Shown here: positions 5,127 to 27,609 of the stretch, piece by piece
How the letters are laid out: the number at the start of each line of letters is the position of its first letter
Position numbering within the stretch: the stretch's first letter is position 1
Assembly (NCBI GenBank): GCA_016764995.1
Contig: JAESQU010000042.1
Location: forward strand, 1 to 32,142
Direction of reading: 5' to 3'
Origin: SAR324 cluster bacterium
GTDB taxonomy: Bacteria > SAR324 > NAC60-12
Length of the DNA stretch: 32,142 nucleotides
The notes under the pieces: generated by a model
What the model saw: only the letters and a program-made list of their open reading frames with translations
What the model was told of the DNA's origin: nothing
The model's database searches: none
Position numbers and translations under genes: made by a program

Positions 5127-5328
5127 AAAGTGTTTTTTTGCAGGTCGGATCATTACTTTTTCAGCATGGCACAATGAATCATCTCCATAAAAAAACATCA
5201 TAAAAAATCTAAAATTCCTGCAATTTTTAACCAATAAGATGCCAAAGGAATAGAATTTGGATTGATATTTTAGCAAGATCTGATAATTACAAAAATTGTC
5301 TGCGCGTAAATTATTCCTGAAACTACTC

Positions 5329-6819
5329 ATGAAATTCCGGAAAACAAATTTTATTATCTGTAAAACCATCCTGGTTTTAGCTGTTTTTATTGCTTATGCT
5401 TCAACTGTATCGGCACAAAATTCGGCAGAATCCATCTCAACTGTTGTGATTGACAGTGCCCCCAAGAAGCTATATTCAGAGCTATATTCAGATGAAACAG
5501 GCAATCAGTTCATGGTGGAAATCTATGAAGAACCACAAGAGGGCCAAAACTTAATCCATTTTCGATCTTTTAAAAATGGACAAATTATCGGCCGAAAATC
5601 ACAAGCACTGGCTGATGCACATAATTTTACTTTTTTCATCGATGAAACAGAAGAACGCATCATGCGCCAAGATACCGAACAGATGCTCTACAACGTCCTG
5701 AAGAAACTGATGGAGGAATCTGACCAGAAATTAAAATCAAATCTGGAAGATATGTTTGATCAGGAAAAATTGGCAAAAAGCCTTTCTGAAAAAATCAAAA
5801 CACCGGACGAGCAAATTGCTACAATGGCCGATCAAATCTCAAAGAAAATCACTTTTGACGGTGGAGCAATTTCTGACATGGCAGAACGTATTTCCAAGCA
5901 AATAAAAACTCCGGAAGAACAAATCGCTGCAATGGCTTCACGTATTTCGAAGGAGATACAAACTCCCGATGATCAAATTGCCGCAATGGCTTCACGTATT
6001 TCTAAGGAGATACAAACTCCCGATGATCAAATTGCCGCAATGGCTTCACGTATTTCGAAGGAGATACAAACTCCGGATGATCAAATTGCGGCAATGGCTT
6101 CACGTATTTCGAGGGAGATACAAACTCCCGATGATCAAATTGCCGCAATGGCTTCAAGAATTTCGAGGGAAATACAAACTCCGGATGATCAAATTGCTGC
6201 AATGGCGTCACGTATTTCGAGGGAGATACAAACCCCGGATGAGCAAATTGCGGACATGGCTTCACGGATTTCGAGGGAGATACAAACTCCGGATGAGCAA
6301 ATTGCTACAATGGCAGATCAAATATCAAAGAAAATCACCTTTGATGGTGGAGCAATTTCTGACATGGCGGAACGGATTTCCAAGCAAATAAAAACGCCGG
6401 AAGAACAGATTTCAACAATGGCGGCACAAATCTCTAAACAAATAAAAACACCTGAAGCACGAATCAATGAAGAGTCATTGGCTTTAACGCTGGCTATAAG
6501 ACTAACACAAAAAGAAAACCTTGTTGCTACAAAAATTCCACCATATGCAGATTTGTTGAACCAAGTTTCTGCCACCAACGAACAGCAGGATTATGAAAAG
6601 GCTATAGACCTCCTGGACGAGGATATTGCCAACCGAACTCCGGAAGAACAACGAAAAGCACTGAAAATATCCGGACTGATGTCGGTACTCGTTGCGTCTA
6701 AAAAATTAAAACGCGCAATCTCAACCATTGATGATTACGACTTGCCTGACGATCCTGGTTTGCGTCAAATATCAGCGGCACTGTCAGAATGGCTGAGTAA
6801 GAACTTGGTTTTGGAATAG
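5329..6819 (+). CDS. Exported protein with 18-residue tandem repeats (helical/coiled-coil-like)
   Basis: ORF 5296..6819; better start ATG at 5329 (track start is TTG). Hydrophobic leader ILVLAVFIAYASTVSAQ; repeats of TPDDQIAAMASRISKEIQ; helix-rich C-terminus. Confidence 0.75.
   Translation: MKFRKTNFIICKTILVLAVFIAYASTVSAQNSAESISTVVIDSAPKKLYSELYSDETGNQFMVEIYEEPQEGQNLIHFRSFKNGQIIGRKSQALADAHNFTFFIDETEERIMRQDTEQMLYNVLKKLMEESDQKLKSNLEDMFDQEKLAKSLSEKIKTPDEQIATMADQISKKITFDGGAISDMAERISKQIKTPEEQIAAMASRISKEIQTPDDQIAAMASRISKEIQTPDDQIAAMASRISKEIQTPDDQIAAMASRISREIQTPDDQIAAMASRISREIQTPDDQIAAMASRISREIQTPDEQIADMASRISREIQTPDEQIATMADQISKKITFDGGAISDMAERISKQIKTPEEQISTMAAQISKQIKTPEARINEESLALTLAIRLTQKENLVATKIPPYADLLNQVSATNEQQDYEKAIDLLDEDIANRTPEEQRKALKISGLMSVLVASKKLKRAISTIDDYDLPDDPGLRQISAALSEWLSKNLVLE
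5800..6447 (+). repeat. 12 in-frame tandem repeats of 54 bp (18 codons), 648 bp total
   Basis: Threonine codon phases at 5800 and 6448 give 648 = 12 x 54. Units 3-9 are near-identical TP(E/D)(E/D)QIA(A/D)MASRIS(K/R)EIQ. Units 1-2 and 10-11 are the variant pair TPDEQIATMADQISKKIT/FDGGAISDMAERISKQIK; unit 12 is TPEEQISTMAAQISKQIK. Confidence 0.93.
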
Positions 6820-12150: not shown

Positions 12151-12669
12151 ATGGCAGATGAAGAAGTTGCCGGTGCCGGTACTACTGAAGACGGAGGCGG
12201 AGGCGGCGGAAAAAAGAAGCTAATTATTATTGTCGCGGTAGTGCTTTTGTTGGTAATTGGCATCGTCGTGTTTTTACTGATGTCTGGTGAAGAAGAAGAG
12301 CAATTACCGGAAGAAGAACAGCAGGTGACAGACGTGGCTGAGCCTCTGGCAGAACCGATATTTCTACCACTGGAAAGCTTTGTGGTAAATCTCAAAGACG
12401 GACGACGTTTCTTAAAAACAACGATTCAACTGATGCTCAGTGAACCAGGAGCATCTGCGTATTTGTCAATCCGCCTGGTTGAAGTCAAAGACATTGTGTT
12501 GGCGGAATTGCAGGAATTGTCAGTTGAGGATGTTAAACAGTCAGATGCCAGAGAAGCTTTGAAACAACGTTTAATCAGCGCAATCAGTCAAATTTTTCCC
12601 AGTAAGCCGGAATGGGAAGACCCTGAACCGATCAGAAAAGTTTTGTTTGAGGAATTTGTAATCCAGTGA
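12151..12669 (+). CDS. fliL: Flagellar basal body-associated protein FliL
   Basis: One TM (LIIIVAVVLLLVIGIVVFLLM) followed by FliL core PLESFVVNLKDGRRFLKTTIQLML...IRKVLFEEFVIQ. Confidence 0.85.
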   Translation: MADEEVAGAGTTEDGGGGGGKKKLIIIVAVVLLLVIGIVVFLLMSGEEEEQLPEEEQQVTDVAEPLAEPIFLPLESFVVNLKDGRRFLKTTIQLMLSEPGASAYLSIRLVEVKDIVLAELQELSVEDVKQSDAREALKQRLISAISQIFPSKPEWEDPEPIRKVLFEEFVIQ

Positions 12670-12783
12670 TCCCAGCTAATTTTAATCAGGGAACATGGAA
12701 CTGGAATGTCAGAAGACACTTTGGTATTGAAGCATTAAGGTCTGTCTGCGGAGTCGCGGTTTGATGGCAGACAAGAAATTGAG

Positions 12784-13290
12784 ATGGACAAAAGTTCACA
12801 GAATAATTCCATAAATCGAAAAACAAACTGGCTTTGCGGCAATTTTGGAAATAAAGCAATCTGTTTGTTGTTAATGCTTACAGGGTTATTTTTCTTTGCT
12901 TCAGCTTTGCACGCAGAAAAACATGCTGTTGAGGAAACAAAAGTCATACGGGAAGGACCTCCTCCACTGGAAAACCCACAATATTTGGATCTTGGTACTT
13001 TCGTAGTAAATATGCCTGGAGACAAATATTTTCTTAAAAGCAGTATCCAGCTGGGATTTGAAAATGCCGCTGCAAAAGATTGGCTCCTGGCTCGATTGCC
13101 AATTGCTAAAGATCTGGTAATTACACATCTTAATTCGATTACGGTTGAACAATTTGATGACACAAAAAATCGAGCTGTTATAAAAAATGATTTACAAATT
13201 CGCTTGAATTCACTTTTTCCCAACAAGGCTCCCTGGGAAGATATGGTGCCAATTCGAAGAATACTTTTTCTGGAATTTTACCGGCAGTAG
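12784..13290 (+). CDS. Second FliL-like protein with N-terminal signal/TM segment
   Basis: DLGTFVVNMPGDKYFLKSSIQLGFEN...FPNKAPWEDMVPIRRILFLEFYRQ, collinear with the upstream FliL (FPSKPEWEDPEPIRKVLFEEFVIQ). Confidence 0.75.
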   Translation: MDKSSQNNSINRKTNWLCGNFGNKAICLLLMLTGLFFFASALHAEKHAVEETKVIREGPPPLENPQYLDLGTFVVNMPGDKYFLKSSIQLGFENAAAKDWLLARLPIAKDLVITHLNSITVEQFDDTKNRAVIKNDLQIRLNSLFPNKAPWEDMVPIRRILFLEFYRQ

Positions 13291-13431
13291 TTTAAAATAA
13301 GCTTCGTAGACAAGTGAAAAATTTTAAAAGCAGATTATGACCGTATGATCTTGTATTTTTTGTTGTAGAGTTTCCTTTAAACTTGTACTCTGAAATATGA
13401 AATTTTAAACTTTAACTTAAAACATTGATTG

Positions 13432-13887
13432 ATGGCAGAAGAAGAAGAATCTTTTGAGAATCTGGATGACTTGGATTGGTCAGACGTTGAGAGCGAACTA
13501 AAAGCAAACAGGGATCAAATTCTCTCCGAAGTTAAGGGCGAAGGCGGCGGCGATCAGAAAGAGGTTAAAGAAGGCGATGGTTCCGGAGAAGGTGATAATG
13601 AAGATGCAAAGGCTTCTGTTTCATCCGGAGATATCGACATCAATTTTCTGTTTGATGTTCAACTCTCGATTATAGTAGAAGTAGGACGTGTCCAGATGCT
13701 GATCAGCGACCTGCTGGAACTGGGTGAGGAATCTATAATCGAACTTGACAGTATGGTTGGGCAACCTTTGGATATACGTGCCAATGATTTGCTGGTTGCA
13801 CGCGGTGAGGTAATTGTTGTCAATGAAAAATTTGCGGTACACATAACGGATATCATTAGTCCGGATAATCGTTTTGCAGCACTCTGA
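13432..13887 (+). CDS. fliN: Flagellar motor switch protein FliN
   Basis: Acidic N-terminus then SpoA domain FLFDVQLSIIVEVGRVQMLISDLLELGEESIIELDSMVGQPLDIRANDLLVARGEVIVVNEKFAVHITDI. Confidence 0.92.
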   Translation: MAEEEESFENLDDLDWSDVESELKANRDQILSEVKGEGGGDQKEVKEGDGSGEGDNEDAKASVSSGDIDINFLFDVQLSIIVEVGRVQMLISDLLELGEESIIELDSMVGQPLDIRANDLLVARGEVIVVNEKFAVHITDIISPDNRFAAL

Positions 13888-13897
13888 GGAAAAAAAC

Positions 13898-15124
13898 ATG
13901 AGTTTCGTGAGACCAGCTTGGCTCAAAGTAGGAATTTCGCTGGTATTATGGGCAAGTTGGATTATACTTGCAACCGCATCAGAAGTACGTACGCTGAAAA
14001 ATATTGAGGTAGTTTCCCTTGAAAATTTAGAGCAGATTCGTTTGGAATTTGATGGAGAATTTCTCGGAGAGCCTTTAATAAATTTTGAGTCCGGCTCAAT
14101 GAGTATGCGTCTGGATTCAGTCCAGATAGATTCCGCATTACCTTTGCTGACTGTTTCAACAGGTGATTCTTTCATAAAGGCAGTCCGCGCGGTTCAAGTT
14201 CCCAACACAGATAATGTGCATTTAGATATTCTGCTCCGATCTTCCCGTGTGTTATTGGGACATCCGGAAATAAAGCATTCAGGAAACAATTTACTCCTTA
14301 GATTACCCGGAAAAACATCTGCAATTCCGGCACTTTCAAACACAGAAGTCCTGTCACAAGAAATTGGGAAACGTGTCAAAACGGATTCGTCTTTTCCATC
14401 AACTTTTTCCAGGGTTTCAGCAGCTGAATCTTCTTCCGAGCAAATAGCTGACATTTTACCAATGCCTCCACAGGATTGGGCTGAGACTATACTGACTCTG
14501 GTTTTGTCACTGCTGTTCATTTTGCTGCTCATTTATTTATTGGCGTTTATCTATAACCGTTTTTTCAGCGGACGATTTTCCTCAATGAAGGGAAATATCA
14601 GCATCCGTCAAGTATCAAGCTACCATGTTGGGCCAAAACAGAAGATTATAGTTTTTAATTTGAACGGCAGACTGTTTGCGTGCGGAGTTACACCAACTTC
14701 TATAAATTTGATTGCTGAACTACATGATGAAAATGATCAGGAGTTTCTGAACGAGATCAAGACAGACGATGAATCCAATGAAATAAACATGGATCAAATG
14801 CAGGCAAATTTTTTAAAAACTCTGGATCCGGAAATTAAAAAAACAGAATCAGCGGCGACTTCGCATAAAGAAAACGTTGATGAATTTGCAACTGCAATAG
14901 AATTTGAAGGAGAGGAAAAAGGAGTTTTTATAAATTCTGATACTGCAAAGGAACTCCAACCATCCGTTTCAAACAACAAAAATAATGGATCCACAACTCC
15001 AATCAGAACACCTATTTCAAGCAAACAGGCAAAAACTGAAAAGATGAGTCATGGCAATCAAATAATGCAGGATTTTGCAACTAAGCTTACAGAGCGTCTA
15101 AATTTCTTAAAGCCCATCAAATAG
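13898..15124 (+). CDS. fliO: FliO-like flagellar export apparatus protein with long N-terminal periplasmic domain
   Basis: Likely ATG at 13898 behind GAGGA. N-terminal exported beta-rich region, TM ILTLVLSLLFILLLIYLLAFIY, then FliO-like ISIRQVSSYHVGPKQKIIVFNLNGRLFACGVTPTSINLIAEL. Lies between fliN and fliP. Confidence 0.78.
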   Translation: MSFVRPAWLKVGISLVLWASWIILATASEVRTLKNIEVVSLENLEQIRLEFDGEFLGEPLINFESGSMSMRLDSVQIDSALPLLTVSTGDSFIKAVRAVQVPNTDNVHLDILLRSSRVLLGHPEIKHSGNNLLLRLPGKTSAIPALSNTEVLSQEIGKRVKTDSSFPSTFSRVSAAESSSEQIADILPMPPQDWAETILTLVLSLLFILLLIYLLAFIYNRFFSGRFSSMKGNISIRQVSSYHVGPKQKIIVFNLNGRLFACGVTPTSINLIAELHDENDQEFLNEIKTDDESNEINMDQMQANFLKTLDPEIKKTESAATSHKENVDEFATAIEFEGEEKGVFINSDTAKELQPSVSNNKNNGSTTPIRTPISSKQAKTEKMSHGNQIMQDFATKLTERLNFLKPIK

Positions 15125-15179
15125 GCACATGCCGCATTTTAAAAATAGAGTTTCAGTTAAAAAAGAGAACGGAGAAATA

Positions 15180-15974
15180 ATGTCCGCGCACAATTTGAGA
15201 TATGTTCTCAATTGTGATACCTCGAAATTCTTGATGCGCGTTTTGTTTTTGCTGGCAATTTTATTTGTAGGGTTGCCGCTTTACGCACAATCTCCAATTC
15301 CTGGAATCAACATTTCAATTGATTCCGCTACCTCACCGCAACAGGTTGCCACTACTTTACAGATAGTATTTTTACTGACTGTCCTGACAATGGCTCCAGC
15401 CATTTTGATCATGACTACTTCTTTCACACGATTCGTGATTGTGTTGTCATTTTTACGTCAAGCCATTGGTACGCCACAGGCACCTTCAAATCAAATTGTA
15501 ATTGGACTGGCACTCTTTCTTTCGCTGTTTGTGATGATGCCGGTTTGGGAAGAAGTAAATCAGGTTGCACTTGAACCATATCTGGAAGAGACAATTTCCC
15601 AACAAGAATTTATGGACCGTGCTACTCTACCAATTAAACGATTTATGGGTAAATTCACCCGAGAAAAAGATTTGGCTTTGTTTGTTCGTATTGCCAAACT
15701 GGAACGTCCAAAAAATATTGAAGATATTCCAATCTGGGTCATGATACCTGCTTTTGTAATTAGTGAATTAAAAGTCGCATTTCAAATAGGCTTTTTGTTA
15801 TATGTTCCATTTCTTGTGATTGACATGGTTGTCGCCTCAATCCTGATGGCAATGGGTATGATGATGATGCCGCCGGTGATGATTTCATTGCCTTTCAAAC
15901 TTATGCTGTTTGTTCTTGTTGATGGATGGCACTTGATCCTTGGTTCAATGGTCCAAAGTTTTATGGATATTTAG
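15180..15974 (+). CDS. fliP: Flagellar biosynthetic protein FliP
   Basis: TTSFTRFVIVLSFLRQAIGTPQAPSNQIVIGLALFLSLFVMMPV...FVISELKVAFQIGFLLYVPFLVIDMVVASILMAMGMMMMPPVMISLPFKLMLFVLVDGWHLI. Start chosen at 15180 behind GGAGA. Confidence 0.96.
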   Translation: MSAHNLRYVLNCDTSKFLMRVLFLLAILFVGLPLYAQSPIPGINISIDSATSPQQVATTLQIVFLLTVLTMAPAILIMTTSFTRFVIVLSFLRQAIGTPQAPSNQIVIGLALFLSLFVMMPVWEEVNQVALEPYLEETISQQEFMDRATLPIKRFMGKFTREKDLALFVRIAKLERPKNIEDIPIWVMIPAFVISELKVAFQIGFLLYVPFLVIDMVVASILMAMGMMMMPPVMISLPFKLMLFVLVDGWHLILGSMVQSFMDI

Positions 15975-16003
15975 CCCACCTTAAACCATTTTTAGAGAGT
16001 TAT

Positions 16004-16276
16004 ATGACTGAAGCACTCGTTGTCTCCATCATGATCGAAGCCATGCGCATGGCCACTCTGCTTGCAGCACCAATGTTGATAGGCGCTTTGGTGGTTGGAT
16101 TACTTGTGTCCATCTTCCAGGCGGTAACACAGATTCAAGAACAAACATTGGCTATCATCCCCAAAATGGGTGCAATGATGGTTGTTATGGCAATCCTTTT
16201 TCCCTGGTTTCTATCTCAGGCCACAACTTATATGTCCGGAATTTTTACCAACTTTCCGCGTTACATTGGCGGATAA
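16004..16276 (+). CDS. fliQ: Flagellar biosynthetic protein FliQ
   Basis: 90 aa from ATG 16004: MTEALVVSIMIEAMRMATLLAAPMLIGALVVGLLVSIFQAVTQIQEQTLAIIPKMGAMMVVMAILFPWFLSQATTYMSGIF. Confidence 0.93.
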   Translation: MTEALVVSIMIEAMRMATLLAAPMLIGALVVGLLVSIFQAVTQIQEQTLAIIPKMGAMMVVMAILFPWFLSQATTYMSGIFTNFPRYIGG

Positions 16277-20617: not shown

Positions 20618-22000
20618 TCACCGCAAATAAACTTCCTTTTCCAGCAACTGCAGAACGTCTTCGCGTTGGAATTCCATTGCATAATCAGCTGCGGTTTTTT
20701 GAGCAAAATCAACTACAGACGGATCAGCCCCTTTATTGAGTAACAAACCTATTGTTCCAATTTTTCCACGACGTGTTGCCAGAATAAGAGCAGTTTTTCC
20801 GCTATTATTATGCATGTTGACTCCTGCACCACGTTTTAATAGCTCCCAAATTGCTTCCGTATTTCCTTTTTCTGCAGCCCACATGAGTGCGGTCCAACCT
20901 TCGTGAGTCCGGGCATTTAGATTTACTCCGGATTTCAAAAATAATTTTAACATCGGCAAATTACCATGAAAAGCAGCCCACATAAGTGGAGAAAAGTTTC
21001 CTTGATCCGGATCGGCGCCATGCTTGAGCAATAATTTTACTATGGGCAAATTTTGCATTGAAGAGGCCCAAACCAATGGTGTGTCTCCAAACTCGTCATT
21101 TATGCCAACATTCGCACCATGTTCTGCCAGCAATTTGACCAGTTCCGTATTTTGCTTTTTGATTGCAAGCATCAAAGATGTATAGCCATTTTGATCACTT
21201 TTTTCCAAATCAACACTAGTAGCTAAAAATTGTTTGACTGCCGCCAATTCACCTTGTTTGACGGCCTGTATCAAGGTGCTCTTTGATTTTTCTTGAATTA
21301 ATACACTTTCTGCAGGCCCTGTTTTCACTGCAAATTGTGTCTTGTTATCATTCAAAAATATTGCATGAATTTTCCCTGATTGATACTCAGGCCAGAGAAG
21401 AATCATGAGAGTGAGAGCAATTCCTGTTAAACTTAATAACAGAATCCAGCCTAGCTTGAGCCAGAGTGAATACTTTTCTGAAATATTTTTCTGCAGGACA
21501 AACTCAACATCATCCGGTTTTTCAGCATAAAATTGATTTTCCGCATCATCGGCTTGAGTCTGTTCTGTTTCAATTACAGGAAGCACATTCTGATAAACAG
21601 TTTCTTCTTTTTCTGTGGAAAAGAAAGGAGTTGGGTAACGTGAAAAATATTTTGGTTTTATCGTAAATCTGACTTCTTCTTGTTTCTTCTGCTCAACATT
21701 TTGAGGCCGTCCTTCTGAGATTGCCAGCAGAATTCCGGGGTCAAACTGCGTGCTTCCTGTAATAGAAATTGGGATGTTTTGCAAACGAACATGCCTGATA
21801 ATTAACCCTAAAAGCTCATGTGTATCATGGCTTATGACTTGCAAATTTTCTAAATCCAGAGTAACCTTCCGCATGTTACTCTCAGCCAAACTATTTGCGA
21901 TTACTTGCATTTCCGACTTTATATCATTTTGCTTCAACTCATCAATTACTTTCAGAGTCGCAATTTGATCTTTTTCTGTAAGAACTATTCGGTTCAACAT
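20618..22000 (-). CDS. STAS-like domain / TM / ankyrin-repeat protein
   Basis: 460 aa. N-term STAS-like (MRKVTLDLENLQVISHDTHELLGLIIRHVRLQNIPISITGS), TM LWLKLGWILLLSLTGIALTLMILLW, then ankyrin repeats (NGYTSLMLAIKKQNTELVKLLAEHGANV; GDTPLVWASSMQNLPIVKLLLKHGADP; SPLMWAAFHGNLPMLKLFLKSGVNL; GWTALMWAAEKGNTEAIWELLKRGAGV; GKTALILATRRGKIGTIGLLLNKGADP). Confidence 0.8.
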   Translation of the reverse strand: MLNRIVLTEKDQIATLKVIDELKQNDIKSEMQVIANSLAESNMRKVTLDLENLQVISHDTHELLGLIIRHVRLQNIPISITGSTQFDPGILLAISEGRPQNVEQKKQEEVRFTIKPKYFSRYPTPFFSTEKEETVYQNVLPVIETEQTQADDAENQFYAEKPDDVEFVLQKNISEKYSLWLKLGWILLLSLTGIALTLMILLWPEYQSGKIHAIFLNDNKTQFAVKTGPAESVLIQEKSKSTLIQAVKQGELAAVKQFLATSVDLEKSDQNGYTSLMLAIKKQNTELVKLLAEHGANVGINDEFGDTPLVWASSMQNLPIVKLLLKHGADPDQGNFSPLMWAAFHGNLPMLKLFLKSGVNLNARTHEGWTALMWAAEKGNTEAIWELLKRGAGVNMHNNSGKTALILATRRGKIGTIGLLLNKGADPSVVDFAQKTAADYAMEFQREDVLQLLEKEVYLR

Positions 22001-22110: not shown

Positions 22111-23115
22111 ATGATAAATTTTACGCGTAAATTGCTTTTGGTGTCGTTAATAATCGCCTTAAGTTGGACCACTGCTTTTGCAGAAGAGGAAGAGCCCGTT
22201 TTTTGGAAAGATCGGCAGATTTCACAATTGGAGCAACTCACTCCAAGTCTGCTGGAGTCTGTCAAAAGTATGCAAAACAAAATTAGCTCTGTCGCAATTT
22301 CCAGCATTTCTTTTGGAGATTCCCTGCCCAGTAGTTTTCGCAAAGTCGCAACCGCGCGTTTACAACAGACACTCACCAGTTTGATAAAATTGAAAGTGAG
22401 TGTCTGTGAATCCTGTAGTCAAATTCGTACAGATATTTCCGGAAGTTTTCTTAAAATCAGCCGTGGAATCGCGGATGATAACTACCGCCGAGAGATTGCC
22501 AAAGAATTAAATGTAAAGGGATTTCTCGACATTGCTGTATTTACAAGTGAAGGTGAACAACTTTCTATCTCACTGAACGCTTATGAAGCAAAAGGAGGTG
22601 AAATTGTTTATTCTAAAATTGTTACCGGAACACCTCCTAAAAGCGGAACTTACATACACGCGTTCTATGGTAAGATGACTGTTCCAATTACTTTTACCAG
22701 CACATCCTCCGGAAGCGTTACCACCGTTGAGCACCAGGCTAGAGTATTAGGTGCAGAAAAAATGGTTCGACTTACAGATGACTGGAGTTTTACCGGAGGC
22801 GGAGCAATGTTGAGTGACGACAACTCCAACTTGACAGATAAATACGAAAAATCAATCACCGGATTTTTGATTGATGGCACAATTATTTATGACGTTTTCA
22901 ACTTTGGCGGTGATCAAGTAGCATTTTCTTTGATTGCCGGTTTAGGCATGATGACAGTGTCACCTTTTAACAATCCGTCATATTTAAAAACAGGGCTTAG
23001 CTTATCAGTAGCAGAACAATTGACACTCAATTACCATTACCTGCTAATGCTGACAACAGATGAAAGCGCTACGGCTTCCGGAGCATCAATTATTTCCATT
23101 GGCTGGAAATTCTAA
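22111..23115 (+). CDS. Exported protein, CsgG/LpoB/FlgO-like N-terminal region and predicted outer-membrane beta-barrel-like C-terminus
   Basis: Signal peptide LLLVSLIIALSWTTAFAEE; alpha/beta region YRREIAKELNVKGFLDIAVFTSEGEQLSISLNAYEAKGGEIVYSKIVTGTP; C-terminal amphipathic strands ending ...ASIISIGWKF (terminal Phe). Confidence 0.55.
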   Translation: MINFTRKLLLVSLIIALSWTTAFAEEEEPVFWKDRQISQLEQLTPSLLESVKSMQNKISSVAISSISFGDSLPSSFRKVATARLQQTLTSLIKLKVSVCESCSQIRTDISGSFLKISRGIADDNYRREIAKELNVKGFLDIAVFTSEGEQLSISLNAYEAKGGEIVYSKIVTGTPPKSGTYIHAFYGKMTVPITFTSTSSGSVTTVEHQARVLGAEKMVRLTDDWSFTGGGAMLSDDNSNLTDKYEKSITGFLIDGTIIYDVFNFGGDQVAFSLIAGLGMMTVSPFNNPSYLKTGLSLSVAEQLTLNYHYLLMLTTDESATASGASIISIGWKF

Positions 23116-23149: not shown

Positions 23150-24481
23150 ATGAAACTATTTAATAATTTCAAATTATTAAGTTCATTTTATCAAAAAGTA
23201 TTTTTTGTTGGCCTTGTTCTGGTGACAGCTCTCAGTGGTTGTACTACGACAGAAGATACTGTGGAACCGGTTGCTGAACTTCCAATCAAGAAAAAAGTGC
23301 TTTTCAATCAGAGAACAGATGGCGGAAAAAATTCTGTTACGGTCATTGAAGAAACACAGGGCAACAAAAGGATTCTGCGAGTTGTTTTACAACGCGGTGG
23401 TCTGCAATCCAACTTAATCCATCCAATTGACAGTCCTAATTTTGTCATTGCAGTTCCTCTGCAGGATGCAACAAGCAAGCGTTTAAGTTTAAAAACAGCG
23501 AATTTTGAACAAAGTCTTAAACTTGATATAGATCAATTACTCTCACGTTACCTTTCTCCGGAACGCTTTAATGTTTCTGTCATAATAAATTGGGACAAAA
23601 AATTGCTGCAGGAAGTACAACTCAAAAATATGCCGCTTGAAACTGATGCCTCAAAGGTTGAAGCAAATAATGTAAATGAAGACGGCGATGACGAAATCTC
23701 TGAAAGCGCAAAACGAAACCATGAATTGAAAGAAGCCCTTAAATCGGTGCAAGTAGGTGTACTACTGGATAACACTCTTCCTGAAACACAAGAGCTGTTT
23801 TTAATGAAACTGATTCCAGCTCAGGAATTTTACAATGCTGATCGTGGAGATACTGTTTCTGTGGAAAGGACATCTTTCCCAAAACCTTTTTCAGACAGTA
23901 TTGCGCCTTATGAAGAACAGATCGTCAGGCGAAAACTGATTGAGTTGTTGATGAAATATGTTGCTAAAACGGATTTTGTGGTAAACGTTAAATTTTCTTT
24001 GATTGAAAGTGACGAAAATACAAAAAACAAGGCACCATCGTCCAGTAACATAAAAATGGCGATAAATTTACTGCTCGATGAAACTGTTCTTCCTGCGGTA
24101 GATACTTTCCTGAAGGAAGCAATCCCGCTGGCAATAAATTTTGATAAGAAACGTGGTGATACACTTTTAATTATCCGCAAGGATTTTCCGGAACGTTCCG
24201 ACAGTTCAATTTCGCCGGAACAGCGCAGTGCGCTTAAAGATTATCGCATAAAAATACTTGAAGCTTTCCAAACAGGAGACTATGTCGCGGGCTTGGAATG
24301 GGCAGCAAAGGGTTTGAAAGTGGCGGTAAAACGTTCAGACAAAATTTTCATTCTGAAAATGAAAGGTTCATTACATTTCCTCCTGGAAGAAAAAGAGGAA
24401 GCCCTTGAGATGTGGGAGCATGTTCAACTTTTAGATCCTAAAGACGAAGAAGTGCGTCAAATGCTGGAAAATTTGGAGTAA
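23150..24481 (+). CDS. Lipoprotein with two FliF ring-building-motif (RBM3)-like modules and C-terminal TPR
   Basis: Lipobox VTALSGCTTT. Module 1: ERFNVSVIINWD...VQVGVLLDNTLPETQELFLMKLIPAQEFYNADRGDTVSVERTSFP. Module 2: TDFVVNVKFSLIE...IKMAINLLLDETVLPAVDTFLKEAIPLAINFDKKRGDTLLIIRKDFP. TPR-like YVAGLEWAAKGLKVAVKRSDKIFILKMKGSLHFLLEEKEEALEMWEHVQLLDPKDEEV. Confidence 0.6.
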   Translation: MKLFNNFKLLSSFYQKVFFVGLVLVTALSGCTTTEDTVEPVAELPIKKKVLFNQRTDGGKNSVTVIEETQGNKRILRVVLQRGGLQSNLIHPIDSPNFVIAVPLQDATSKRLSLKTANFEQSLKLDIDQLLSRYLSPERFNVSVIINWDKKLLQEVQLKNMPLETDASKVEANNVNEDGDDEISESAKRNHELKEALKSVQVGVLLDNTLPETQELFLMKLIPAQEFYNADRGDTVSVERTSFPKPFSDSIAPYEEQIVRRKLIELLMKYVAKTDFVVNVKFSLIESDENTKNKAPSSSNIKMAINLLLDETVLPAVDTFLKEAIPLAINFDKKRGDTLLIIRKDFPERSDSSISPEQRSALKDYRIKILEAFQTGDYVAGLEWAAKGLKVAVKRSDKIFILKMKGSLHFLLEEKEEALEMWEHVQLLDPKDEEVRQMLENLE

Positions 24482-24484
24482 GGA

Positions 24485-25663
24485 ATGAAAAAAAACAAAG
24501 TTTCCGGTGCCGAAATTTCTCTTTACACCTTGCTCATTATCTGTCTACTGATCTTTTTGTATATCGACAAAGTGCACGCGCAGGATTCTGTCCGGAATGA
24601 TGTTAATGCACAAGTCGAAGATCCTTCTCCTGAAAAAGCGGCAGAGGCTGCTGAAAAAAAACAAACTCTTGAAGAACTGCTTGCGGTTCCATTTAATCAA
24701 ATTAAGCAAGAGCAGGAAGAGGAATTAGGCCTTTCCGGTGATGGATCTGAATCTGACAAAAAAAGTAAAAGTAAAGACGGTGACGTAAAATTACCTCCAC
24801 CTCCGGAACAAAGAAAAGTTGAAAGAGATTTAGAAAAACAGTTGGATGAGATTTTCCGGGAGAAATTGCCAAAAGCGTATGTTGGTGTTTCTGTAAGTAT
24901 TCGTTATATTCTGGAAACTGTTCCTGTCACGAGACGAGATAAGAGTATCTCAAAAATAAAGTTGCCTGGATTTGAAAATAATGTCTGGGTACCGACAGAA
25001 ACGAAAAAAATAATCGGCATAGTAAATCAAGTGCGGCCGTACACGACAATTTTTGCTGTCGTGAACACTCCTGTTTCTCTCTTCAATGTTGAAGTTCTTC
25101 GACAAACTTTAGACAATCGGATTAAATTTCTCAACTTGACTGGAAGAGATGTACTCAAAATGGTACATGTTCCGTTTACGACTCCAGCCAAGTCTTCTGT
25201 AATTACCCTTGGAAACGCGGCGGCTCAACTTGCGGAAGCAGATCAAAAGGATGCTGACGAAAAGGAAACAGAAAAAGAAACTGATAATGCTTCAATGGTT
25301 GAGGAAGAACCTGGAGTTGATGGTGAGGATGAGAGTCTTGTAGATGCGGAAGAAAAACCGGAAGCTGTTTTGGAGCCTGATCCTGAACCGCGGAAGATAG
25401 ACATGAAAGCTAGAGTTGAAACCACACGCTATCTATTGCAGGCAAGAAAGAGTTATCTGATTGAAGATTATGACACCGCTATCACCGCACTCCGCAGAGC
25501 AATTGAACTCAATCCATTTTCATCACAGGCTTTTGCTATGCTTGGTTCCATTTACTACCGGCTTGGCTGGAACAGAATGGCAATAGAGAATTGGCAACAC
25601 GCCCTTGAACTTGATCCAACAAATGAGGGTCTGAAAAAATATCTCCTGCGTTTTTCAAGGTAA
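24485..25663 (+). CDS. Exported/membrane-anchored protein with one FliF RBM3-like module and C-terminal TPR
   Basis: N-term hydrophobic LYTLLIICLLIFLYIDKVHAQ; DEIFREKLPKAYVGVSVSIRYILETVP...IKLPGFENNVWVPT...IIGIVNQVRPYTTIFAVVNTPVSLFNVEVLRQTLDNRIKFLNLTGRDVLKMVHVPFTTP; TPR ARKSYLIEDYDTAITALRRAIELNPFSSQAFAMLGSIYYRLGWNRMAIENWQHALELDPTNE. Confidence 0.6.
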   Translation: MKKNKVSGAEISLYTLLIICLLIFLYIDKVHAQDSVRNDVNAQVEDPSPEKAAEAAEKKQTLEELLAVPFNQIKQEQEEELGLSGDGSESDKKSKSKDGDVKLPPPPEQRKVERDLEKQLDEIFREKLPKAYVGVSVSIRYILETVPVTRRDKSISKIKLPGFENNVWVPTETKKIIGIVNQVRPYTTIFAVVNTPVSLFNVEVLRQTLDNRIKFLNLTGRDVLKMVHVPFTTPAKSSVITLGNAAAQLAEADQKDADEKETEKETDNASMVEEEPGVDGEDESLVDAEEKPEAVLEPDPEPRKIDMKARVETTRYLLQARKSYLIEDYDTAITALRRAIELNPFSSQAFAMLGSIYYRLGWNRMAIENWQHALELDPTNEGLKKYLLRFSR

Positions 25664-27609
25664 TGATGTTCAAAAAAAAATATTTGAAGCCAAACAAGCC
25701 TGGACTCATAAATCCTCACAGATTTTTTCTGTCTGTTTTAGTTTCCTCAATCATATTATTTTTGCTTGCTCCAACTCTTTCTGTTGAAGCACAGGAACGT
25801 GTAAGGTCGCTCAGCATACGCCAATTAGAAATTGAAGAGGCGATCCGCAACGGACTCAAATATTACCTGGAACCCAGGGATTATGTGCTGCGTGTAAAAC
25901 TATTTGGAGAGGAACGCTCTGTAAGTATGGCAAACGAAACTCTTCCAGGCTTCGGTCAACTAAATGAACCTTCCAGCACAAGTGGTGCAAAATATTGGCA
26001 AATCACTAGGATGCGTGTGGATTTGGTGATGCACAAAGAAGTTTCGCCTTCAGTTAATTCTTACATCGGTGAAATTGTTCCTATCCTCAGTGGACTTGAT
26101 TATGAGCGCGGAGATGAGTTGATTTTTGTGCCGATTTTACCAAGCGAGCCTTTTCCTGAAAAGTTGGATTTGTCTGGTGAATCTGCGGATTTGCCTGATC
26201 CAATGGCGGAAGCTGTTCCTGAAGATGCAAAAGAAGAAGGTGAGGATCTAAAAGTTGAGCTTACTGCGGAAGAAGTGGAAAAGTTGGAGGAAGAAAAACC
26301 GATTTGGTTGAGGATGAGTGATATAGAAATGATTCTTGCAGGAATGTTATTGTTGCTCATACTCTTGTTTTTATGGGTTCTGTGGAAACTTAGCAAGCTC
26401 AAAGCCGCTGGAGCTGATAATGCAGGTTTTCCCGCATTGATGCCGCCTGATTTACAAACACCTCAACTGCCATTACCTCCACAACAAGGCTTGGTTTCAA
26501 TTCCGGATCCCATTGATAAATTGCTGGGTAAAAACGGACATTCGGATTATGGAATCAATGACGCTCAAATAAGAGAAGACAACGAACGTCTCATTCAAGA
26601 AATCATTAAACAACTCATTGGACGAAACGATTGGAAAGAGGAATTGGTCCATGAGATGTCGCGCGACAAGCAATCGATGGAAATGCTGACCAAGCTTATT
26701 GCAACGCTGGGTATGAGTGCATCAAGAAAACTCTTTGCCGGAACAATTCCAAATAAAACATATTTGGATATTGAAAAATTGGCGGAAGAAGCAAATCCTT
26801 CTCCTGAAGAAGCAAATGCTGTTTTAAAAGATGTGCAGAAATTTCTGCTCACCAAACAGTTAACGGATCCGGAAGATAACAAAACAAATCCTTTTGGATT
26901 CATGGATCAGCTGACAACATCACAAATCGGATTTTTGATAAAAGATGAACCCGCAAAAATAAAAGCCTTTGTAATCATACGCATGGAAAGCGAGGAGGCC
27001 GCAGAATTACTTCGTGATCTTCCAAAAGATGAGCGCACCAAAGTAGCCTTGGAAATGGGAAAGATTCACGAACTTCCACTTGAACTGGTTGAGAAAATTG
27101 GCTACAACCTTGCAGAAAAAGCGAGACATGTGCCGGATGAGGGTACAGTTGGAGTTGATGGAATAAAATTCATGGCGGACGTGCTTAGTGAACTTGATAA
27201 CACAACCAGAGATGAATTGATTAATGGCTTGCGAACCTCAGATATTAAACTGAGTGAGAACATTGAGAGTCATTGTTTTATTTTTGAGTCACTTCCGGAT
27301 GTACCAAAAGACATATTACTGGAGGTGGTAAGAAAATTACAACCTGATGCAGTGATTACGGCGATTTCCGGATCTACCACAAAAATTAAGGAAGCGGCAA
27401 TCATGTGTTTTCCTGAAAAAAGCCGTTCCGCACTTGTGTCTTCACTAAAATCAAAATCTCCTGATTCAGCTGAAATACGGGCTGCTCGCAAATTATTTAC
27501 GCAATCTATGCGTGATATGGCGGATGCCGGACGCTTGGATTTGAAAGAAGTAAATACAAAATTCACACAACGCGACAGTGCTCCGGAATCTGCGCCAACT
27601 AAAAGTTAA
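25663..27609 (+). CDS. Membrane protein with periplasmic FliF RBM-like region, TM, and cytoplasmic FliG-like (N-M-C) region
   Basis: TM1/signal FFLSVLVSSIILFLLAPTLSVEAQE; RBM-like LKYYLEPRDYVLRVKLFGEE...LPGF...ITRMRVDLVMHKEVSPSVNSYIGEIVPILSGLDYERGDELIFVPILPSEPF; TM2 MILAGMLLLLILLFLWVLWKL; FliG-like MLTKLIATLGMSASRKLFAGTIPNKTYLDIEKLAEEANPSPEEANAVLKDVQKFLL...LTTSQIGFLIKDEPAKIKAFVIIRMESEEAAELLRDLPKDERTKVALEMGKIHELPLELVEKIGYNLAEKA...GVDGIKFMADVLSELDNTTRDELINGLRTSDIKLSENIESHCFIFESL. Confidence 0.65.
   Translation: MMFKKKYLKPNKPGLINPHRFFLSVLVSSIILFLLAPTLSVEAQERVRSLSIRQLEIEEAIRNGLKYYLEPRDYVLRVKLFGEERSVSMANETLPGFGQLNEPSSTSGAKYWQITRMRVDLVMHKEVSPSVNSYIGEIVPILSGLDYERGDELIFVPILPSEPFPEKLDLSGESADLPDPMAEAVPEDAKEEGEDLKVELTAEEVEKLEEEKPIWLRMSDIEMILAGMLLLLILLFLWVLWKLSKLKAAGADNAGFPALMPPDLQTPQLPLPPQQGLVSIPDPIDKLLGKNGHSDYGINDAQIREDNERLIQEIIKQLIGRNDWKEELVHEMSRDKQSMEMLTKLIATLGMSASRKLFAGTIPNKTYLDIEKLAEEANPSPEEANAVLKDVQKFLLTKQLTDPEDNKTNPFGFMDQLTTSQIGFLIKDEPAKIKAFVIIRMESEEAAELLRDLPKDERTKVALEMGKIHELPLELVEKIGYNLAEKARHVPDEGTVGVDGIKFMADVLSELDNTTRDELINGLRTSDIKLSENIESHCFIFESLPDVPKDILLEVVRKLQPDAVITAISGSTTKIKEAAIMCFPEKSRSALVSSLKSKSPDSAEIRAARKLFTQSMRDMADAGRLDLKEVNTKFTQRDSAPESAPTKS

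Follow-up and report, generated by a model that had tools for sequence, protein, structure and literature searches.

A SAR324 operon ending in an RBM3-FliG fusion protein: a probable MotAB-driven rotor complex of the cell envelope

We analyzed a stretch of 32,142 nucleotides (contig JAESQU010000042.1 of assembly GCA_016764995.1, positions 1 to 32,142, forward strand; hereafter the window) from a bacterium of the SAR324 cluster. It contains an operon whose last gene, at 25663-27609, joins a ring-building domain of the RBM3 type, a transmembrane (TM) helix and a FliG-like cytoplasmic region in one chain. The gene content of the operon, its relatives in other genomes and a special MotA-MotB pair that goes with it suggest a dedicated envelope rotor complex, ion-driven through MotAB, that lacks an export gate and a filament; the rotation and the cellular task are what we infer, and we put the probability of this reading at about two in three. 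Canonical flagella are encoded separately from the operon in SAR324. Because a search of 52 SAR324 genomes for canonical flagellar genes found FliM in 52 of 52 and FlhA in 51 of 52, the ordinary SAR324 flagella are treated here as a separate matter. The fusion gene and its parts are the following (amino acids, aa; open reading frame, ORF).

25663..27609, + strand: RBM3-TM-FliG fusion protein, 648 aa (ORF list, Pfam, orthologues, AlphaFold model, Foldseek)
25795..26145, + strand: RBM3-type ring-building domain, periplasmic, aa 45-161 (hhalign, model, Foldseek)
26329..26385, + strand: TM helix, aa 223-241 (hydropathy; model helix 220-253)
26677..26865, + strand: FliG_N-like helices, aa 339-401, weak (hhalign E 0.0015, probability 17%)
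26920..27135, + strand: FliG_M domain, aa 420-491 (Pfam E 4.3e-12; hhalign E 1e-14)
27226..27543, + strand: FliG_C domain, aa 522-627, electrostatic torque residues replaced (Pfam E 1.2e-12; hhalign E 8e-17)

From the N- to the C-terminus, the protein consists of a signal/TM segment (aa 21-39), the periplasmic domain, an acidic linker, the second TM segment, another linker and a helical cytoplasmic part (approximately aa 293-639). A previous inspection of the letters alone (the sequence-only reading) had described this ORF as a single RBM3-TM-FliG polypeptide, and the Pfam matches, hydropathy, structural model and orthologues all agree. Intact full-length orthologues with 73-81% identity are present in SAR324 metagenome-assembled genomes (MAGs); therefore, chance and assembly error are excluded as sources of the ORF. 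One MAG (loci L014 and L026) has a split fusion gene and a split lon, probably the result of sequencing frameshifts.

The FliG_M and FliG_C matches pass the Pfam cut-offs, and both domains are present in 25 of 26 homologues. The sequence-only reading had claimed all three FliG portions; this holds for M and C, whereas the proposed N portion (aa 339-401), co-linear with canonical FliG_N but poorly aligned, is the weakest part of the fusion, and the Pfam FliG_N match lies at aa 435-525, on the M region. The TIGR00207 equivalog of canonical FliG gives 59.5 bits for the fusion versus the 226.7 required. An origin from the MgtE magnesium channel was considered and rejected, with MgtE_N at 23.2 bits (cut-off 25.9) and no MgtE membrane domain listed by Pfam.

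The RBM3-like segment has no Pfam match of its own in the window fusion, and was identified through the neighboring genes. It aligns with the two RBM3 domains of the adjacent lipoprotein (hhalign E 2e-15 and 1e-10) and with that of the RBM3-TPR protein encoded between them (E 2.5e-7), so that four mutually homologous RBM3 domains are spread across three adjacent genes; the first lipoprotein domain in turn matches the C-region of the SAR324 canonical FliF (E 5.4e-7). The direct comparison of the fusion with canonical FliF is weak (E 0.003); the unrelated controls (MotA, MotB and the outer membrane (OM) protein) gave E values of at least 0.1, given as 0.14 or worse. RBM1 and RBM2, i.e., the N-terminal part of YscJ_FliF, were not found in the three RBM proteins by Pfam even with the threshold relaxed to E 1. 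Thus, the description of the gene as a FliF-FliG fusion stands for RBM3 joined to a FliG region and fails for a whole FliF: the "FliF" part is one of the three ring-building domains of FliF, RBM3 only. Sequence searches of PDB missed RBM3: the fusion and its profile matched FliG, with FliF a poor match over the TM region only, and the lipoprotein profile matched best to TPRs.

The fusion was modeled with AlphaFold from a phylum-wide alignment of 26 sequences (pLDDT 70.9, pTM 0.35); an earlier run with 10 close homologues (pLDDT 46) was discarded. The pLDDT is approximately 70-89 for the greater part of both the periplasmic domain and the cytoplasmic region, and low in the loop 89-107 and the linkers. 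The periplasmic domain has the order alpha-beta-beta-alpha-beta. In Foldseek comparisons with PDB, FliG structures ranked first (best E 2.8e-9, with full-length FliG aligned over 317-339 columns), with FliF S-ring/RBM3 structures next (best E 8.6e-4). Each match covers a separate part of the model; the domain arrangement is unreliable, as the pTM indicates, and this keeps the whole-chain TM-scores low. Profile searches and structure prediction, which the sequence-only reading had named as its own possible refutation, thus returned FliG matches above cut-off and the FliG and FliF RBM3 folds.

The other genes of the operon and a divergent neighbor are listed below.

24485..25663, + strand: signal peptide, RBM3-type domain (aa 108-240), TPR repeats (aa 328-380) (hhalign to fusion RBM3; TPR Pfam; synteny)
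23150..24481, + strand: lipoprotein (lipobox LSGC), two RBM3-type domains (aa 112-252, 253-352), TPR-like C-terminus (hhalign; YscJ_FliF_C E 1.5e-4, just under the cut-off)
22111..23115, + strand: signal peptide, ~150-aa domain, OM beta-barrel (PF13505 in 9/9 orthologues; synteny)
20618..22000, - strand: TM protein with ankyrin repeats (Pfam ankyrin; adjacency in the same genus and in L070/L071)

The OM barrel gene is separated by 34 bp from the lipoprotein gene, which is followed after 3 bp by the RBM3-TPR gene, and the latter overlaps the fusion gene by 1 bp. This order is identical in the eight genus-level loci that extend far enough, and is recognizable, with an extra TPR gene, in deeper SAR324 families. 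The best PF13505 match among the barrel orthologues has E 2.3e-5; the window copy is below the Pfam cut-off. A CsgG/FlgO-like domain suspected by eye in the OM protein was dropped for want of Pfam support. The ankyrin-repeat protein is a possible accessory of the operon. The gene for the FlhA export gate is absent from the operon, and no rod, hook or filament proteins were recognized in it (no genome-wide search for them was made).

In deeper lineages (genomes G029, G045, G047, G049, G002, G003, G004 and others), the operon contains genes for MotA and MotB or has them next to it. The pair has the features of a MotAB-type stator, namely, the MotA/ExbB channel domain, the MotB plug and channel Asp (invariant in the motif FADLM), and the OmpA domain. 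Among the 52 SAR324 genomes, the fusion was detected in 28, all with canonical FliM, and the special MotAB pair in 30; both were found in 26 genomes, the fusion only in 2, MotAB only in 4, and neither in 20. The corresponding numbers for genomes at least 90% complete are 7, 0, 1 and 10. Elsewhere in the window's genome, the ordinary stator locus (L122:6157-8359) comprises one MotA and two tandem MotB genes.

Outside SAR324, a sample of 381 genomes was searched. Four FliG-type matches exceeded 140 bits; the other listed matches outside the phylum reached approximately 100 bits or less. Two of the four are fusions of 644-651 aa (G093 and G237, from one phylum), and two are split (G377 and G103), with the FliG-type protein beside an RBM3 protein, MotA and MotB; at L134 and L135, MotA, MotB, the RBM3 protein and the FliG-type protein follow in a row. 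Further fusions (L136-L140) belong to other FliG lineages, and several adjoin MotAB; at L136 and L139, YscJ_FliF_C, FliG_M and FliG_C all pass the Pfam cut-offs in one chain. FlhA is missing in five fusion-carrying genomes that are 93-98% complete (G093, G261, G256, G288 and G116), and MotA was found in four of these, with none in G288 at the threshold used. Some fusion-bearing bacteria appear to lack flagella. Long frames of the FliG type turn up repeatedly in the small phylum to which G116 and G256 belong.

In a tree of 44 rows, the SAR324 fusions and L132-L135 split from the rest with support of 99/97, and the ordinary FliG proteins of G000 (the window's genome), G237, G103 and G377 were placed with the canonical set. 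The tree is unrooted and does not distinguish an offshoot from an older module. It should be noted that L156, L157 and L161, pre-grouped as canonical FliG, did not group with the other 18; the test of all 21 as one canonical clade was rejected (P 0.009), and once this result had been seen, these three were dropped from subsequent counts of canonical proteins.

A second motor-like set was observed in SAR324 family f1, in which another operon encodes a fusion-like protein of ~545-608 aa that matches FliG weakly, together with MotA and a long MotB of 448-523 aa, at L106:5335-9553 and also at L110, L111, L112, L113, L114 and L115; this suggests that the motor theme has diversified. At L113:4384-15413 (G031), genes that resemble those for tail proteins, contractile tail sheath among them, come after the motor-like set.

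For the proposed rotor complex, we envisage the following arrangement. The fusion would oligomerize through RBM3 into a ring, and its FliG domains would form a cytoplasmic rim hard-wired to that ring. Peptidoglycan-anchored MotAB units would turn the ring, while the periplasmic RBM3/TPR proteins might stack on it and pass the motion to the OM barrel and the lipoprotein. As a guess, the output at the surface could be movement resembling gliding, or else mechanical work done on the outer membrane. The sequence-only reading had already cast the fusion as part of a non-canonical envelope machine, in which it would be a hard-wired component like the MS-ring and C-ring, and this gains support from the operon partners, from MotAB in the deeper lineages and from the relatives without FlhA.

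The same parts could instead serve the canonical flagellar motor, as extra periplasmic rings, a second FliG and alternative stators that modulate the basal body. Other bacteria are known to have accessory rings on their flagella as well as TPR scaffolds, the canonical FliM and FlhA genes are nearly universal in SAR324, and the operon is approximately 6 kb from fliL-fliN-fliO-fliP-fliQ in the window. However, in 24 of the 52 SAR324 genomes canonical FliM is present and no fusion was detected, and related fusions with MotAB occur in near-complete genomes without FlhA. Furthermore, there would be competition at the base between the fusion and FliF-FliG, and the FliM-binding EHPQ motif of the genome's own canonical FliG (SEHPQTIA) is not kept (KDEPAKIK in the fusion). 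We consider such an accessory role unlikely. A dedicated FliM partner of the fusion was looked for and rejected, given that second and third FliM copies do not track the fusion across genomes.

Several observations weigh against a MotAB-driven rotor. In E. coli FliG, the torque positions are numbered K264, R281, D288 and D289. On that numbering, the charges at K264, R281, D/E288 and D/E289 are kept in 18 of 18 canonical FliG proteins, whereas the SAR324 fusions have S/Q/A/T, K/Q/R, S/T and S/A/T at these positions, with the charges at 264, 288 and 289 replaced in 13 of 13. A MotAB survey describes charge pairing between MotA and FliG as R90/D288-D289 and E98/R281 (PMC12505986). Given the replacements, the contact with MotA has to be built differently, or this site may not transmit torque. 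In addition, the window's genus has MotAB outside the operon: in the window's genome, the special type is at G000:C215, unlinked to the operon. One genome of 92% completeness (G018) keeps special MotAB without the fusion, and the two SAR324 genomes with the fusion alone show the reverse; the Fisher P of 2e-8 for the co-occurrence overstates independence because the genomes are related.

The replaced charges would also fit a complex that is powered by MotAB and does not rotate, i.e., a transporter or signaling complex in which the role of the FliG-like repeats would be confined to anchoring or gating the channel, in the way that TolQR and ExbBD power work at the outer membrane. So would the departures of the special stators from flagellar ones: the periplasmic TM1-TM2 loop of MotA is ~35-45 residues longer than in canonical MotA, and the spacing between the TM segment and OmpA domain of MotB is ~25 residues shorter than in the genome's own canonical MotB. 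Conversely, FliG_M and FliG_C are conserved across the phylum along with RBM3, the ring-forming domain, and the split relatives L134 and L135 retain K, R, D and E at the four torque positions; we find the non-rotary explanation more doubtful than that of a flagellar accessory. A decayed or duplicated basal body without function is very improbable: RBM1 and RBM2 are absent and torque residues are changed, but the ORFs are intact at the identities given above, gene order is fixed in the genus and recognizable across the phylum, and a dedicated stator pair is retained alongside the fusion.

The window also contains two tandem FliL genes followed by FliN, FliO, FliP and FliQ (12151-16276, with no adjoining fliM); the FliM domains of this genome lie at three loci (C80, C170 and C81). 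A secreted-looking protein of 507 aa with many near-identical repeats of ~21 residues (IQTPDDQIAAMASRISREI) is encoded at 5296-6819.

The usual view ties the flagellar rotor and stator inseparably to the export apparatus and the filament. A conserved operon that keeps stator and rotor without export or filament would show the motor module living alone and would offer a natural comparison for the way in which MotAB acts on FliG when the classic charge pairs are absent; the separate histories of motor and secretion system would become testable with living material. No account of this gene set was found in searches of open-access papers on FliF-FliG fusions, FliG with MotAB and gliding, and non-flagellar stators, which is not proof of absence. 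The broader proposal, for which the case seems to us evenly balanced, is a previously undescribed class of flagellum-independent rotary machines, with MotAB turning an RBM3-FliG ring coupled to OM proteins, that spans several phyla including flagellum-less lineages and is possibly a survivor or offshoot of the flagellar motor module.

Compared with the bacterial flagellar motor, the system shares RBM3, the TM helix, FliG_M/FliG_C, the MotA/ExbB-family channel, and the MotB plug and OmpA domain. It differs in that the SAR324 operon has no RBM1/RBM2, export gate, rod, hook or filament genes, combines RBM3 and FliG in one chain with extra RBM3, TPR and OM partners, and has replaced torque charges, while its relatives live in genomes without FlhA. 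Natural fusion of the two proteins, as proposed by the sequence-only reading, is present here and has an earlier example in Chlamydiaceae (PMC4768692); there, a ring protein is likewise joined to FliG sequence, whereas the SAR324 fusion keeps RBM3, has both M and C, and has MotAB in its set. Engineered or mutant FliF-FliG fusions of Salmonella (cited in PMC4768692) and Vibrio (PMC11481574) indicate that a ring, or a motor that works, can be assembled from a fused chain; these are laboratory constructs or mutants within an ordinary flagellum. FliG is mentioned once in the main text of the MotAB survey (PMC12505986), and is discussed with the flagellum in the consulted portion of a review of 5:2 motors (PMC9389320). 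GldLM and the other 5:2 motors covered there resemble the proposed SAR324 system as ion-driven motors of the inner membrane that act on the envelope in the absence of a flagellum. That portion assigns them no FliG rotor, whereas the SAR324 stators are of the MotAB type with a FliG-type partner.
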